Below are positions 4,804-9,214 of a stretch of DNA of 17,689 bases, one piece after another. The stretch is from positions 1-17,689 of the forward strand of contig JALOQO010000003.1 in assembly GCA_025453305.1 (NCBI GenBank). Reading direction: 5' to 3'. The notes beneath the pieces are model-generated. The model was given only the letters and a program-made list of their open reading frames with translations. It searched no databases and was not told the DNA's origin. Each line of letters begins with the position of its first letter. Position 1 is the first letter of the stretch. Made by a program: the position numbers and the translations under genes. The DNA is from Patescibacteria group bacterium. GTDB lineage: Bacteria > Patescibacteriota > Saccharimonadia > Saccharimonadales > CAIOMD01.

Positions 4804-5199
4804 TTAGGCAACGAGCCCATGCCTAATGGCTGTAGACCCAATTGCTGCTCTTGCCCTTTTATCGCAATAGTCTTTAGCCAAAGATTCAACTATAACCACA
4901 ACACCCTCTTTAGTTTTATCCCCTTTAATATAACTAATTAAATCTTCGAGCAAACCTTTATCGTTTACAAGTCTTATAAAACCCCTCAAATCACTTAATA
5001 GAGGTTCAACATCATTCTTGTCTGTAATTTTAGATAGTTTAGTTAAGTCTTCTTTTGTAAAATTTCCGAATTCAATAAAATCAATTAGACCTTTAACCAA
5101 CAACATATGTGGCTCACCCAACTCTTGTATGGGTAATTCATGTAGTCTGGGATCTAAACCCGCACCACCACTATTCCTACTTCTTTCTCCACTATCCAT
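4804..5199 (-). CDS. Unrecognised 131-aa protein
   Basis: I do not recognise this family. The protein has a polar, Gly/Ser-rich N-terminus (1-15), a mostly helical middle with LVKGLIDFIEF, FTKEDLTKLSKI and LLSDLRGFIRLV, and a basic C-terminus with RARAAIGSTAIRHG. It has no membrane segment or signal peptide, so it is probably cytoplasmic. The ATG at 5199 has AAAGG about 6 bases upstream. It ends 65 bases before the vanY-type start. Upstream lies a 438-base noncoding stretch holding a candidate promoter, tandem dyads and element copy A. The 129-aa gene at 6427-6816 has similar length, a TKE(D/E) helix and a basic RAR-x-A C-terminus, so distant paralogy is possible but weakly supported. Confidence 0.7.
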   Translation of the reverse strand: MDSGERSRNSGGAGLDPRLHELPIQELGEPHMLLVKGLIDFIEFGNFTKEDLTKLSKITDKNDVEPLLSDLRGFIRLVNDKGLLEDLISYIKGDKTKEGVVVIVESLAKDYCDKRARAAIGSTAIRHGLVA

Positions 5200-5240
5200 A
5201 TAAAACCTTTTTCAAGTTATACTTTTATACTATTGGTTCT

Positions 5241-5269
5241 ATATTAAAATAACATTACCAACATTGCAA
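5241..5269 (-). promoter_or_regulatory. Candidate promoter of the 131-aa gene
   Basis: On the minus strand TTGCAA (5269-5264), a 17-base spacer and TAATAT (5246-5241) make a fair sigma-70-type promoter. Transcription would begin near 5234, giving a leader of about 35 bases. The dyads and element copy A lie upstream of it, so they would not be in this mRNA. Confidence 0.35.
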
Positions 5270-5332
5270 TTTTTTACATAAAAACAAAATACCGAATGTT
5301 TAGTAGTTTGTAGTTCAAATATCATATTTTAT

Positions 5333-5390
5333 AGTGGTGTTTATATTTGGGTATACACTACAGGTAGCGTATATACACCACAGGTGGTGT
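5333..5390. repeat. Two tandem 20-base-period dyads plus an extra arm
   Basis: Two units start 20 bases apart at 5352 and 5372, each TATA followed by a dyad. The second is perfect, ACACCAC-AG-GTGGTGT (5375-5390). The first is ACACTAC-AG-GTAGCGT (5355-5370) with one mismatch. A further GTGGTGT at 5334-5340 can pair with the ACACCAC arm, so alternative hairpins are possible. The two-base loop is too tight for a good RNA hairpin, and a 20-base spacing puts both dyads on about the same face of the helix, which favours a protein-binding site. No other copy was seen in the window. Function unknown. Confidence 0.6.
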
Positions 5391-5432
5391 GTCTTATCTG
5401 CTTTTTTGATATTTTGTATCTATAAAAATTCG

Positions 5433-5553
5433 CCATAACAATCTAGATAATCTAGGAAAAAGCCAAGACAAAAGACCTGTTCATTTAATAAGCAACCCCT
5501 GCGACCAGAATCATACCCGGGACTTTGTTACTTTAGTCATAAAGTAATATAAT
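5433..5553 (+). ncRNA. Noncoding element, copy A (candidate structured RNA)
   Basis: Within the 5200-5637 gap this segment shares, in the same order, three blocks with 7176-7335: GCCAAGACAAAA (5462-5473), CCAGAA then CCCGGG (5505-5521), and TTTGTTACTTT (5524-5534) leading into a perfect 8-bp hairpin TTACTTTA-GTCA-TAAAGTAA (5528-5547). The spacing from the first to the second block is 43 bases here and 40 in copy B. A small dyad CTAGA-TAA-TCTAG (5443-5455) precedes it. Copy A lacks the long pairing arms of copy B. The strand is uncertain; plus is used for comparison with copy B. It could instead be a set of protein-binding sites. The rest of the gap shows no credible gene. Confidence 0.35.
5525..5553 (+). 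promoter_or_regulatory. Candidate plus-strand promoter spanned by a dyad
   Basis: TTGTTA (5525-5530), a spacer of exactly 17 bases and TATAAT (5548-5553) form a good sigma-70-type promoter. The spacer is almost wholly filled by the dyad TTACTTTA-GTCA-TAAAGTAA, a typical repressor position. Transcription would start near 5560 and run antisense into the SRAP 3' end. The only short ORFs downstream are 15-19 codons (ending at 5614), which I do not call as genes. Confidence 0.4.
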
Positions 5554-5637
5554 AATGGTTAGTTATATGTGGGCTCCAGTCGTTAGACAGGTTCCACCGC
5601 ATAAGCTTCTTTAAACTTTTACCGTATTAGTTATAGG

Positions 5638-6315
5638 CTATGTGATTTGCACCGGCTTTAGTAAGTCTTTACTATTGTGCCAGGGTGAATTTACGGCCAT
5701 GCTAACCGGATATATATCAAGCAAACCATCCCCGTACGGTTCAAGCAGGCCGGCCAGTTGCTCTTGTTCGTGGTACGACGGATCCAGCCAGGCAGATTCT
5801 TGCTTTGGCGTTAATATAACTGGCATCCTATCGTGCACCTTAGACATTTCGGTATTAGGCCGTGTAGTTACTATAGAAAAGCTATAGAGCGGATAATCCT
5901 CGCTATCATGCCATATGCTGTATAAACCAGCAAAGGCAAATAATTCTTGATTTTTTGGGGTGATATAAAAAGGCTGTTTATGGCCGGCAAGCTCTTTCCA
6001 TTCGTAAAACCCCCTAGCTGGTACTAAGCAACGGTGGTGAGCGATTGCTCCACGCCACATAGGGCTTTCAAAAACTGTTTCGGCACGGGTGTTAATAGGC
6101 CTCCGTTCTTTTTTAGGATCTTTTGCCCAAGGTGGCAAATAACCCCACTGCATTAGGCTAGCTGTTATTGCGCCAGAATCTTCTGAATATACTATTGGTA
6201 ATCGTTGCCTGGGGGCAATATTGTAGCTATCTTTGCTAACAAAAGTCGGTTTAGTTGCCAAATTAAACCGCTCCGCCAAATTATCGTCTTCGTAAAGTGT
6301 ATATCTACCGCACAT
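5638..6315 (-). CDS. yedK: SRAP/HMCES-type abasic-site DNA-protein crosslink protein
   Basis: This SRAP-family protein (E. coli YedK, human HMCES) covalently traps abasic sites in single-stranded DNA through its N-terminal cysteine, shielding them from breakage. Its 225 residues fit the family size. Key residues are all present: MCGRY with Cys2 freed after Met removal, N75 in INTRAET, E105 in RGFYEW and H161 in KVHDRMPVIL. The start is fixed because Cys2 must follow the initiator Met; there is no Shine-Dalgarno site. A terminator-like hairpin lies between it and the upstream 129-aa gene, so it probably has its own promoter. The Y-family polymerase 1.7 kb away suggests a damage-response neighbourhood; no LexA-type operator was recognised. 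Confidence 0.95.
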   Translation of the reverse strand: MCGRYTLYEDDNLAERFNLATKPTFVSKDSYNIAPRQRLPIVYSEDSGAITASLMQWGYLPPWAKDPKKERRPINTRAETVFESPMWRGAIAHHRCLVPARGFYEWKELAGHKQPFYITPKNQELFAFAGLYSIWHDSEDYPLYSFSIVTTRPNTEMSKVHDRMPVILTPKQESAWLDPSYHEQEQLAGLLEPYGDGLLDIYPVSMAVNSPWHNSKDLLKPVQIT

Positions 6316-6376
6316 ACTTTAATAGTAAATAGTAGTTCGTGTTTCGTAAATAGCCTATTTAGCGAGGGCCTACCAC

Positions 6377-6402
6377 AAAAAGCGGGCAGTAGCAGCTGCC
6401 GC
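6377..6402 (-). terminator. Rho-independent terminator after the 129-aa gene
   Basis: On the minus strand GCGGCAG and CTGCCCGC pair (one bulged base) around a six-base loop and are followed by TTTTT. It lies 25 bases downstream of the 129-aa gene stop and 62 bases before the SRAP start, so it would separate the two genes' transcripts. Confidence 0.6.
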
Positions 6403-6426
6403 CACCACCCTACCGGGGACCTTGGG

Positions 6427-6816
6427 TTATGTGAGCGCAAAATTGCCAAGATTAGCTAACCTAGCTCTCCTCTTAGCACCCCCAGAACTCTCGAGTTCAT
6501 CTATTATATGTTTTAACACAACTTCCATACGGTGCAAATCTTCTTCTGTAGCATCTTTAGGCAAACCCTGTACTAATTCTAATATTTCCTCTTTGGTTAA
6601 ACCCTCTTCTAATAGAGCTGCTACGGACGCCCTAATCTGATCTGTAGGGTCACTACCGTCTACACCACTAGCATAATCAGTATAAGAATCTCGTCTTGAA
6701 TCTTCAGCCTTCTTACGCAAATACAGAATAGTCAGTAAAGCAATTAGTTCTTCTAATCTGCGCTTTAATCTTTCTTCTGGCGAAACGCTTGGTTCTCTAT
6801 CCACTCCGCGGTTCAT
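6427..6816 (-). CDS. Unrecognised 129-aa protein
   Basis: I do not recognise this family. The protein is highly charged and predicted mostly helical: an Arg/Glu-rich first helix with a hydrophobic stretch (RLEELIALLTILYLRKKAED, about 18-37), an acidic polar linker (40-60), then helices around LLEEGLTKEEILELVQGL (about 68-85) and the C-terminal RRARLANLGNF. It has no membrane segment or catalytic motif; the helical pattern would suit a small DNA- or protein-binding partner, which is inference only. It starts at ATG 6816 with no Shine-Dalgarno site, behind a candidate TTGACA promoter. The 645-base noncoding stretch with element copy B lies upstream. It may be distantly related to the 131-aa gene at 4804-5199, also next to a copy of the element. 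Confidence 0.7.
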   Translation of the reverse strand: MNRGVDREPSVSPEERLKRRLEELIALLTILYLRKKAEDSRRDSYTDYASGVDGSDPTDQIRASVAALLEEGLTKEEILELVQGLPKDATEEDLHRMEVVLKHIIDELESSGGAKRRARLANLGNFALT

Positions 6817-6867
6817 ATTAAATTAAACAGTCTTTCGTTATGACATTACTAAATAAACTGATATTTA

Positions 6868-6895
6868 TATTTACATACTATTACATTATTGTCAA
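6868..6895 (-). promoter_or_regulatory. Candidate promoter of the 129-aa gene
   Basis: On the minus strand a consensus TTGACA (6895-6890), a 16-base spacer and TAAATA (6873-6868) precede the gene, with a predicted leader of about 45 bases. Confidence 0.45.
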
Positions 6896-6922
6896 TTTCT
6901 ATCGGCGCGCATTTCTGATATA

Positions 6923-6938
6923 ACCCCGAGTACGGGGT
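6923..6938. other. Perfect hairpin in the 645-base noncoding stretch
   Basis: ACCCCG-AGTA-CGGGGT is a perfect 6-bp GC-rich stem with a four-base loop. It lies upstream of the 129-aa gene promoter, with no U-tract on either strand. Further along (6966-7023) a weaker imperfect stem pairs TAGGGTGTTCA with TGATACACCTTTA. Their role is unknown. No credible gene was found between 6817 and 7461; the only short ORF of note is 16 codons at 7079-7129. Confidence 0.4.
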
Positions 6939-7101
6939 AACAAGCTTGCATCTTAACATTTAAATATAGGGTGTTCATGGGTATTATCGCATTGGCTTAG
7001 TAGTTAGATTGATACACCTTTATGGGTCTGGGCATCACATCTTATAGTTAGTATATAGGGGTGAATTTGCAATTTAATATGTCTGAATATCTAAATAACA
7101 G

Positions 7102-7310
7102 CAAAAAAGCTTGGTCTATATGCGATTAATTGCATCTCATTAGCAATAGATTCAGATGATGTAATTATCATCATGGCCAAGACAAAAAGCCAAGTCCGGA
7201 TTATTCTATAGGTAACCAGAAATCCGGGCCGACCGCAGGGAGTCCTTTTTGTGCCAAGTGATAATTACATTCAGACGAGTTATTGATAATGAGCGCAGAG
7301 GCTTTTTGTT
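7102..7310 (+). ncRNA. Candidate rod-shaped RNA of about 200 nt (element copy B)
   Basis: A long imperfect inverted repeat spans 7104-7307. From outside in, the paired blocks are AAAAAGC/GCTTTTT, GCG/CGC, CTCATTA/TAATGAG, CAATA/TATTG, a 10x10-base internal loop carrying TCAGA on both sides, ATGTAATTATCA/TGATAATTACAT (12 bp perfect), TGGC/GCCA, ACAAAAAG/CTTTTTGT, and an apical stem CCGGATT/AATCCGG with an 18-base loop. The base ends in GCTTTTT, which could terminate transcription; the minus strand ends the same way, so orientation is not certain. On the plus strand TTGCAA (7067-7072) and TCTAAA (7090-7095), 17 bases apart, would start it near 7102. Size and rod shape recall 6S RNA, but no conserved 6S sequence is seen. 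It shares blocks with 5462-5547. Confidence 0.45.
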
Positions 7311-7335
7311 ACTTTTTAGCCGGTATAAAAAGTAA
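7309..7335. other. Perfect 10-bp hairpin/dyad after copy B
   Basis: TTACTTTTTA-GCCGGTA-TAAAAAGTAA is a perfect 10-bp dyad with a seven-base loop. It is the counterpart of the 8-bp dyad at 5528-5547, and both are entered through the identical bases TTTGTTACTTT (here 7305-7315). AGCC-GGC-GGCT follows at 7346-7356. It could be part of the RNA element or an operator for the 7462 gene. Confidence 0.5.
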
Positions 7336-7461
7336 TGAGTTAACTAGCCGGCGGCTGGGTGCGAAACGCAATTAAAAGCTTTGCCACTCAAAGTTGTAAA
7401 ATAATTTGACTTAAAAAATTAAATATATAAAGGTTGTTAATCTTTATAAAGGAGAATTCTT

Positions 7462-7728
7462 ATGAAATCTAAAATCAATCAAGAAGTTAGTGTAATTAGT
7501 GTATTTAGCAGCCGCCTACAAACAGCTAAGCCACACCTAATTAGCTGGCAAAATAAAGATTACAAAGTAGGCGAAATTGGCTATCACCACAAGATATATA
7601 GCGGCCGTATATGCCACCATATTTACGAACTAACAGACCAAGACCAAACCTTATGGTTTAGGCTAAGCTTTAATACCGATAATCTGCGTTGGGTACTAGA
7701 AGAGATCAGCGATGGCAACACCGACTAA
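7462..7728 (+). CDS. Unrecognised 88-aa protein upstream of the Y-family polymerase
   Basis: The start is well set by AAGGAG 8 bases before the ATG. The protein is small and soluble-looking, with a beta-rich pattern: ISWQNKDYKVGEIGYHHKIYSGR (about 28-50), then HIYELTDQDQTLWFRLSF and a C-terminal LRWVLEEISDG. The layout (a basic residue-aromatic strand, W..V.E..DG end) reminds me of the small DUF6504-type proteins found beside Y-family polymerases in Actinobacteria, but I cannot confirm homology. It precedes the polymerase by about 250 bases in the same direction, with a possible small antisense gene in between, so a shared damage-tolerance role is plausible but inferred. Its promoter region is A/T-rich with TTGACT at 7406. 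Confidence 0.8.
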   Translation: MKSKINQEVSVISVFSSRLQTAKPHLISWQNKDYKVGEIGYHHKIYSGRICHHIYELTDQDQTLWFRLSFNTDNLRWVLEEISDGNTD

Positions 7729-7741
7729 AAAAATCTTAGTG

Positions 7742-7954
7742 TTAAAGGCCGGGATTAGCGCAATGGCCCAGATGCTCAACTGTAGCAGTGCGGGTAATAG
7801 GTTCTCTGTTTGGCCCCATAATAGTATCTGTAGTCTGTTTTAGCAAACGATCACACCCCCTAACCTCACACTGTACCTCATTATCTCTGCTTGGGTGTAA
7901 GCCACCACCATCCAGCTCTATACATACAGGATTATCACCTAACCGTTCAATCAT
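7742..7954 (-). CDS. Possible small cysteine-containing protein
   Basis: This 70-aa ORF from ATG 7954 (extendable to TTG 7981, overlapping the polymerase start) fills the gap between two plus-strand genes. The translation reads like a real protein: a CxxxxC-type pair (VQCEVRGC, plus a Cys near each end), few low-complexity runs, and a sensible mixture of charged and hydrophobic residues; a soluble, possibly metal-binding protein would fit. Against it: there is no Shine-Dalgarno site, its promoter would have to lie inside the polymerase gene, and it is antisense between two co-oriented genes. The opposite strand holds only a less convincing ORF. I do not recognise the family. Confidence 0.45.
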   Translation of the reverse strand: MIERLGDNPVCIELDGGGLHPSRDNEVQCEVRGCDRLLKQTTDTIMGPNREPITRTATVEHLGHCANPGL

Positions 7955-7975
7955 AACAACAACTATATCACAATT

Positions 7976-9214
7976 ATGCAACTAGATTTTAACTACAACC
8001 AACCACTAATAATGCACATCGATCTTAACAGCTGTTTTGCCATTATAGAACAGCAGGCCAATCCACTGCTTAGGCATAAACCCGTAGCTATTGCCGCCTA
8101 CGATAGCCTTGGCGGGGCAATTATAGCTAGTAGCTACGAAGCCAAAGCCAAGGGTATAAAACTGGGCGTAAATGTGCGAGAAGCCCGCCTGCTGGCCCCA
8201 GATGTATGTATTCGTATGCCAGACCCCGCCAAATATCGCGATGCCCACAAGCGCTTTAAAGCGGTTTTAACAGCATATACCAGCAATGTTACCCCCAAAA
8301 GCATAGATGAATTTGTAATAGATTTTACCGGTAGCCCAGCGCTCCGGTCTGGCAAAACTATGCAAGATATCGGATACGATATAAAACAACGAATCAAAGA
8401 AAGCCTAGGTAGCTATGTAACCGTTAATGTAGGTATTGGCACAAACCGCTTTTTGGCAAAAACGGCGGCTGGCTTAAACAAGCCAGACGGCCTAGACACA
8501 ATTACGGCCGATAATCTTAAAAAAGTATATTCTGGTATGCAATTAATTGATTTAACAGGTATAAATGTTAGATTTGCCGCCCGCCTAAATGCTGCCGGCA
8601 TTTACACCCCACTAGATTTTTTGAACACCCCAGCCGAAACCTTGGCTAAAAAGGTTTTTAAAAGCCGGGTAGGATACGATTGGTACGTCCGTTTAAGGGG
8701 CTGGGAGGTAGACAATATTGCCTGGGGCACAAAAACCTTTGGCCACCAGTATGCTTTAGGTCAAAAAACCAAAGACAGACAGGAGCTATCTAAAATCCTG
8801 GCTAAATTATGCGAAAAAACCGGTCGCAGAATGCGCCGGAACAACTACAGCGCGCATGGCGTGCACCTTTGGCTATTGTTCGCAAACCGAACACATTGGG
8901 CCAAGGGTAGACACACCCATAATCAGCTGTACGCTAGCCAAGATATTTACATTTACGCTCAACGGCTACTTAACGAAATATCAATACCGGCAAATGTCAC
9001 AAATATAGCCGTATCGGTATATAAATTAACGCCCAGCCAACCGCGCCAACAAAGTATGTTTGCCGAAACAAGGCTAGACAACTATGCTCTAGCAGACGCT
9101 ACAGACGAAATAAACGATAGATACGGCGAGTTTACTGTGATACCCGGCATAATGACCGGTATGGAGGGCCTAATTCTAGATCGCATAGCCTTTGGATCGG
9201 TAAAAGATCTATGA
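7976..9214 (+). CDS. dinB: Y-family (DinB/UmuC-like) translesion DNA polymerase
   Basis: This is a low-fidelity polymerase that extends primers past damaged bases. Its 412 residues carry the catalytic metal ligands D16 (HIDLNSCF) and D111-E112 (KSIDEFVIDF), the steric-gate aromatic F21, and the palm signature GIGTNRFLAKTAAGLNKPDG (about 154-173). Unlike catalytically dead ImuB proteins, the D/DE triad is intact. A QQSMF pentapeptide (358-362) near the C-terminus fits a sliding-clamp binding motif, followed by DEINDRYGEF typical of the family. The start at 7976 has no Shine-Dalgarno site; an in-frame ATG at 8012 directly before HID is an alternative. Neighbours (88-aa protein, SRAP) suggest a damage-tolerance cluster. 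The stop is TGA. Confidence 0.94.
   Translation: MQLDFNYNQPLIMHIDLNSCFAIIEQQANPLLRHKPVAIAAYDSLGGAIIASSYEAKAKGIKLGVNVREARLLAPDVCIRMPDPAKYRDAHKRFKAVLTAYTSNVTPKSIDEFVIDFTGSPALRSGKTMQDIGYDIKQRIKESLGSYVTVNVGIGTNRFLAKTAAGLNKPDGLDTITADNLKKVYSGMQLIDLTGINVRFAARLNAAGIYTPLDFLNTPAETLAKKVFKSRVGYDWYVRLRGWEVDNIAWGTKTFGHQYALGQKTKDRQELSKILAKLCEKTGRRMRRNNYSAHGVHLWLLFANRTHWAKGRHTHNQLYASQDIYIYAQRLLNEISIPANVTNIAVSVYKLTPSQPRQQSMFAETRLDNYALADATDEINDRYGEFTVIPGIMTGMEGLILDRIAFGSVKDL

Follow-up and report, generated by a model that had tools for sequence, protein, structure and literature searches.

What are the two noncoding stretches, here copy A and copy B, that share ordered sequence blocks and hairpins around the SRAP gene on contig JALOQO010000003.1 of a Patescibacteria group bacterium (Saccharimonadales; assembly GCA_025453305.1)? 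We analysed them within a window of 17,689 nucleotides, the whole stretch of DNA under study, which also holds a Y-family polymerase (dinB) gene. The initial annotation took them for a possible new RNA or regulatory element. We consider it probable that the two represent the same dispersed, non-autonomous palindromic DNA repeat, in full in B and in decayed form in A. On our best reading, the element is widespread and gene-less, and it behaves like repetitive extragenic palindromic (REP) sequences and bacterial interspersed mosaic elements (BIMEs) while falling outside the REP class by its membership tests. It has a definite anatomy, is dispersed, recurs across phyla and differs between strains at two Acinetobacter sites.

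At the level of the two copies, we confirmed that A and B share blocks beyond chance. The 12-base word GCCAAGACAAAA stands at 5462-5473 and 7176-7187, as annotated, with no further exact copy in the window and two copies with one mismatch. The 11 bases TTTGTTACTTT run in both copies into a perfect dyad, of 8 bp in A (TTACTTTA/TAAAGTAA) and 10 bp in B (Table 1). The order of the matches withstood shuffling: the collinear exact-word chain scored 21, which was reached by 3 of 5000 dinucleotide shuffles of both stretches. The dyad pattern TTACTTT-N2..25-AAAGTAA occurs twice in the 17.7-kb window, vs. a mean of 0.027 over 300 shuffles (maximum 1). The single best local alignment of A and B is weaker evidence, with its score matched by 5/1000 and 3/1000 shuffles under two gap schemes and equalled by a minus-strand tile near 2100. 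The words CCAGAA and CCGGG are present in both copies as annotated, although such short words alone are no proof.

The two copies differ in their overall fold. B is strongly structured (7085-7345: z -5.41 for the DNA fold and -4.16 for the RNA fold, 0 of 200 shuffles as good in each case), and the neighbouring 6830-7085 is unstructured by comparison (z -0.35). Copy A retains the small hairpin along with apex words here and there, and its fold over 5430-5640 is not unusual (z -0.31); it is therefore best read as a truncated or decayed copy. B is longer than the annotated 7176-7335, at about 7104-7335, and its more natural reading is in the minus-strand direction, which places the dyad at its 5' end, flanked by ACTCA and CAAAA. 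When checking for terminal inverted repeats, the right end of B was not found and a left end was possible at best.

Table 1. Features of the window, with positions counted from its first nucleotide
Feature	Positions	Strand	Description
131-aa gene	4804..5199	-	sub-threshold DUF496 match only; no BLASTP homologue in 59 relatives searched
Copy A	5455..5547	-	8-bp dyad (5528-5547) and apex-like fragments as far as GCCAAGACAAAA (5462-5473)
SRAP gene	5638..6315	-	neighbouring gene
129-aa gene	6427..6816	-	no Pfam match; no BLASTP homologue in 59 relatives searched
B long imperfect hairpin	7104..7307	-	about 200 nt; outer stem 7301-7307/7104-7110
B long-hairpin arms	7281-7293/7136-7148 and 7253-7275/7152-7177	-	helix coordinates from the fold
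B inner stem	7245-7252/7182-7189	-	contains most of the GCCAAGACAAAA block
B apex	7196..7245	-	GGACTCCCTGCGGTCGG and terminal 10-bp stem 7218-7227/7196-7207; GGACTCC..GTCGG
B hairpin 1	7309..7335	-	perfect 10-bp dyad TTACTTTTTA/TAAAAAGTAA, 7-nt loop; portion recurring across phyla
Possible B end	7367..7371	-	TTGCG on the minus strand, proposed from the matching ends of copies in G065; weak
88-aa gene	7462-7728	+	no Pfam match; neighbouring gene
Y-family polymerase gene	7976-9214	+	neighbouring gene

Searching 99 genomes with B by blastn, we retrieved two short matches besides the window itself. The match in genome G037 is the hairpin (84% over 7298-7335, E 2.8e-4) and lies between pyrG-like and protease-like genes; the one in G004 is the apex (92% over 26 nt, 7226-7251, E 4e-4) and lies upstream of a murE-like gene, with these genes named from open reading frames. 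Both loci keep one order –small hairpin, CAAAA-containing tail, long hairpin with other arms, apex– and G004 holds three loci of such layout (L003, L043, and L044). With hairpin and tail combined, 24 matches were found in 9 of 286 Patescibacteria genomes and none with the reversed control, so that adding the tail removes the chance background. From the Saccharibacteria genome G065 we aligned 12 copies, one of them truncated where its contig ends; they occupy unrelated places and have one architecture: two inverted units about a central hairpin, with TTGCG-type ends, spanning 491-573 bp in the eight copies with a matched right end. In total, 23 right-end hairpins were counted there. In both G037 and G065 two units stand tail to tail, giving an element of about 500-600 bp, and the ends of the G037 copies, judged by eye, are inverted and of TTGCG or TGCG type. 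Several G065 contigs begin or end inside or beside element copies, and the true copy number may therefore exceed the count.

The hairpin is found far beyond the Patescibacteria. The pattern GTTACTTTT-N3..20-AAAAGTAACCAAAA occurs in at least 119 stretches of the genome contig collection and in 15 stretches of viral contigs, where the reversed pattern, run there as the control, gave 0. Among the matches listed, the hairpin with its (C)CAAAA tail is near-identical in records of eight phyla by title: Bacteroidota, Bacillota, Pseudomonadota, Desulfobacterota, Fusobacteriota, Nitrospirota, Lentisphaerae, and Patescibacteria (including SR1). Folding is a feature for which the pattern did not select: the 200 nt downstream of the hairpin presented a median z of -2.33 (33/116 below -4), vs. 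-1.01 for the 200 nt upstream (8/113) and -0.42 for stretches 1.5 kb away (2/84). Of 170 copies from all sources, 119 had an arm pair scoring at least 14, as did 15 of 170 shuffles. The apex AACTC..CA[AG]ACA was detected in 20 of 120 cross-phylum copies vs. 3 of 168 control stretches. A stricter scan retrieved 10 apices with a terminal stem of at least 4, and 0 in shuffles, from Saccharibacteria, Gallionella/Gallionellales, Desulfobacteraceae, Filimonas, and Silvimonas records. The form G[G/A]AACTC-[stem]-TCA[A/G]ACA, with unrelated stems, is common to Saccharibacteria and records titled Gallionella/Gallionellales, Desulfobacteraceae, and Silvimonas.

BLAST searches with single copies, which reach close relatives only, matched 3 of 72,556 plasmid records for a Pseudomonas copy and three plasmid-filed records, all chromosome-sized, for an Acinetobacter copy; a Stenotrophomonas copy was unmatched in E. 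coli genomes. A candidate hairpin directly upstream of hairpin 1 ('hp0') was dropped as too weak across phyla (stem of at least 5 in 10/120 copies vs. 39/1200 shuffles).

Strains of one species differ in the element. We compared Acinetobacter baumannii records that are chromosome-sized and filed as plasmids. At one site, two strains carry a copy and two others hold about 50-60 bp of other sequence. At a second site, the element has opposite orientations in the two strains compared, and was either inverted or replaced.

Is the element a structured cis-regulatory or small RNA that controls SRAP, dinB, or the orphan genes, in line with the first interpretation? We regard this as very unlikely. 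B does fold far beyond shuffles and lies upstream of the 88-aa gene, at a distance of 127 bp. However, in the comparison that the annotation itself proposed, the dyad is kept in none of 37 homologue loci of relatives, within about 1.5 kb (29 loci for the 88-aa gene, one per genome, of 56 relatives matched, and eight for SRAP, from six genomes), where a lone tail-like word without the dyad was seen at L254. Copy A is located on the 3' side of SRAP, past its stop codon, and not upstream. In relatives, the element sits at unrelated places and is not tied to dinB or SRAP. The annotated absence of a known RNA family was borne out, with 0 Rfam 15 matches in the window at the gathering score; relaxed E-value searches of 5200-7480, L002, and L003 gave only matches far below gathering scores, and no tRNA or tmRNA was found. 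In the window we found no specific role of the element for SRAP or dinB.

Arm mismatches offered a strand test of the same RNA: a transcript under selection should show more wobble pairs (G-T in DNA) than A-C mismatches in its own orientation. No such bias was seen outside Saccharibacteria (64 G-T vs. 60 A-C in 83 copies, p 0.79), whereas 11 acceptor stems, taken as a small tRNA control with all pairs counted, gave 9 vs. 0. Within Saccharibacteria the mismatches lean to one strand, which would fit an RNA: 29 G-T vs. 64 A-C (p 0.0004, uncorrected and from copies that are not independent). G065 alone presented 34 A-C vs. 13 G-T, so 34 of the 64 come from its related copies, and counting by genome the lean was 8 vs. 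4, with 4 ties. We take the mismatch counts as no support for an RNA across phyla; within Saccharibacteria they may reflect selection on one strand.

The position of the copies also bears on a DNA site. An SOS operator would make the dyad a repressor site common to SRAP and dinB, and both families are linked to the SOS response. The absence of the dyad from all 37 homologous loci and the location of A past the SRAP stop codon leave this scarcely credible. A transcription terminator was rejected, with no bias to convergent genes (15/72 copies vs. 40/232 other gaps, p 0.49), and gene orientation around the 72 classifiable copies resembles that of other gaps.

Around B, the gene order itself differs from that of relatives. 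In G003 and G066, SRAP lies next to the 88-aa gene in divergent orientation, about 30 bp away, while the gap in the window is about 1.1 kb and contains B and the 129-aa gene. Given this difference and the unmatched 129-aa gene, B lies in lineage-specific DNA. B itself may have been the insertion.

If the element is mobile DNA, a classical miniature inverted-repeat transposable element (MITE) comes to mind, that is, an insertion sequence that has lost internal DNA but keeps its terminal inverted repeats and is mobilised by a DDE transposase. The G065 and G037 copies, with their inverted TTGCG- or TGCG-type ends (by eye in G037), their size of about 500-600 bp and no evident gene, are in line with this, and they resemble bacterial MITEs (NEMIS, RUP, and others, as described in passages of PMC3733652) in being short, gene-less, and bounded by inverted ends.

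Target duplications are the mark of most transposase insertions. Unlike MITEs, the eight G065 copies presented none (mean of 1.0 nt for own pairs vs. 1.5 nt for mismatched pairs), and no matching autonomous element was found in G065: among 17 end matches in its broken assembly, no paired TTGCG ends surrounded a gene-sized insert. Nor did a gene family accompany the copies. Clustering the 1013 open reading frames of loci L066-L199 by BLASTP, only ABC transporters and spurious frames –the latter lying over Oscillospiraceae elements– recurred at four or more loci. A classical MITE is thus an unlikely explanation. An obligate 3' inverted partner was rejected as well, since within 3 kb of 146 copies (genome and viral) we counted 17 inverted partners downstream, six direct, and one inverted upstream. 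At L173 and L167, facing hairpins about 1.27 kb apart enclose genes for a Fic-like (L173) and a membrane-like (L167) protein, as if genes had been caught inside the element; no transposase was recognised among these genes, which were named by eye with no family search.

The palindromes occur as inverted pairs, which raises the REP doublets forming hairpins (REPINs) or BIMEs of these bacteria's own REP-associated tyrosine transposase (RAYT) system. Y1_Tnp domains are present in 38 of 118 Saccharibacteria genomes (loci L205-L224, mostly RAYT-size frames). They co-occur with the hairpin (12/22 genomes with it vs. 26/96 without, Fisher p 0.02; 11/18 vs. 27/100, p 0.007, when four genomes judged to be chance matches are moved), with kinship not corrected in either count and a few IS200-size frames pooled with the RAYT-size ones. 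Moreover, three G037 copies adjoin that genome's RAYT palindrome, although these copies are interrelated and one chance insertion could explain the neighbourhood. Against a RAYT origin, the hairpin is absent from all 20 Y1_Tnp loci read. A RAYT frame was recognised in 14 of these loci; 13 of them are flanked on both sides by another short palindrome, such as TTGCAAGG-n-CCTTGCAA, and one by a direct repeat. No Y1_Tnp match was obtained in the six genomes of the window's family, and G000, a 70% complete assembly, likewise gave none. Hence, we hold it quite unlikely that the element belongs to this system.

REP/RAYT is nevertheless the nearest model. Compared with REPs, BIMEs, and REPINs as described in PMC3733652 (see also PMC3116915), the element likewise consists of many scattered, inverted-paired palindromes, mosaic and non-coding, but it is far larger (about 200-570 bp), has a similar hairpin in several phyla, and flanks none of the RAYT loci read. 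By the definition in PMC3733652, one foot of a REP palindrome carries the tetranucleotide GTAG or CGTC, and neither is present at the foot of the B dyad, with its ACTCA and CAAAA flanks; copies dispersed in inverted pairs, as for REPs, are present.

Other known repeats are more distant. The R178 repeat of Pseudomonas fluorescens, which measures 101 bp, contains an 11-bp inverted repeat and is present in all three strains (Table 3 of PMC2718517), may represent the hairpin at the level of one species, compared by description, as its sequence lies outside the main text of that paper. Integron attC sites likewise form an imperfect single-strand hairpin with a conserved foot and variable arms. Unlike them, the hairpin foot GTTACTT misfits the GTTRRRY core (GTTRRRY / RYYYAAC), by inspection of hairpin 1 only. 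The element is not named in the literature searched, judged by titles and abstract starts. A library-wide search with its DNA words returned only papers unrelated by title and abstract start, PMC5771137 not among them, and the hairpin words are absent from the main text of PMC3733652, PMC2718517, and PMC13155455.

How could a dispersed palindromic repeat of this kind move? Its small end hairpin, TTACTTTT-loop-AAAAGTAA, leads into CAAAA, mostly after a C or G, and is joined to a long imperfect hairpin. The arms of the latter vary in sequence between copies yet remain complementary, and its apex often retains one of a few internal-loop motifs. No gene was found in the element, so it has to be moved in trans or by recombination, and an enzyme acting in trans is the probable mover. 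Copies may spread when their hairpins become exposed as single-stranded DNA, on the lagging strand or in cruciforms, and a putative trans-acting nuclease would cut and rejoin them in the manner proposed for REP/RAYT. We favour such processing of single-stranded hairpins by a putative nuclease.

It is possible, if doubtful, that all copies belong to one ancient class of hairpin-capped DNA elements, with the end hairpin near-constant in Patescibacteria, Bacteroidota, Bacillota, Pseudomonadota, and others. A putative nuclease or recombinase reading single-stranded hairpins would have spread it between and within genomes, and the arms would be free to change in sequence, since recognition would rest on shape, end hairpin, and apex only. 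Families of palindromic repeats in bacteria are, as a rule, described as confined to a species or clade. Here, records of eight phyla, tiny-genome Patescibacteria included, have an end hairpin in common, placed before long hairpins with variable arms, which suggests a recognising protein that is widely shared. Its discovery would explain a class of unannotated DNA. The outcome also disposes of a false trail towards a new dinB/SRAP riboregulator.

Several observations weigh against a dispersed DNA repeat. The bare hairpin is modestly above its control in Saccharibacteria (49 matches in 22/118 genomes vs. 21 in 16/118), with 13 of the 49 supplied by G065, and single bare hairpins can thus be chance; the tail of B has one C, so the window copy fails the stricter hairpin-and-tail pattern. 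The cross-phylum copies, among the matches listed, were fetched by exact pattern, which means that the identity of hairpin letters across phyla is by selection, and single matches to metagenome-assembled genomes in a phylum could be contamination. Since the apex appears in only 20 of the 120 copies, the family may lump several palindromes. No clean empty site was observed: the extra 1.1 kb of the window contains more than B, and the element-free Acinetobacter strains hold their 50-60 bp of other sequence. Not all copies are plainly intergenic, with 16 of 130 inside an open frame of at least 200 aa, and the neighbour-gene search linked no mobilising enzyme to the element. Finally, the A-C excess in Saccharibacteria, which extends to all copies together (124 A-C vs. 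93 G-T, p 0.04), would fit selection on the strand on which the element was initially annotated.

Apart from the element, the 88-aa protein next to B had matches in 57 of 99 genomes (its own included), and its gene precedes the Y-family polymerase gene. In G003 and G004 it overlaps the polymerase start, which suggests a conserved partner of the polymerase. In the window, about 250 bp (7729-7975) separate these two genes. This stretch was tried as a possible third insertion and rejected, being unstructured and folding worse than its own shuffles (z +2.57); it contains a 79-aa minus-strand frame.

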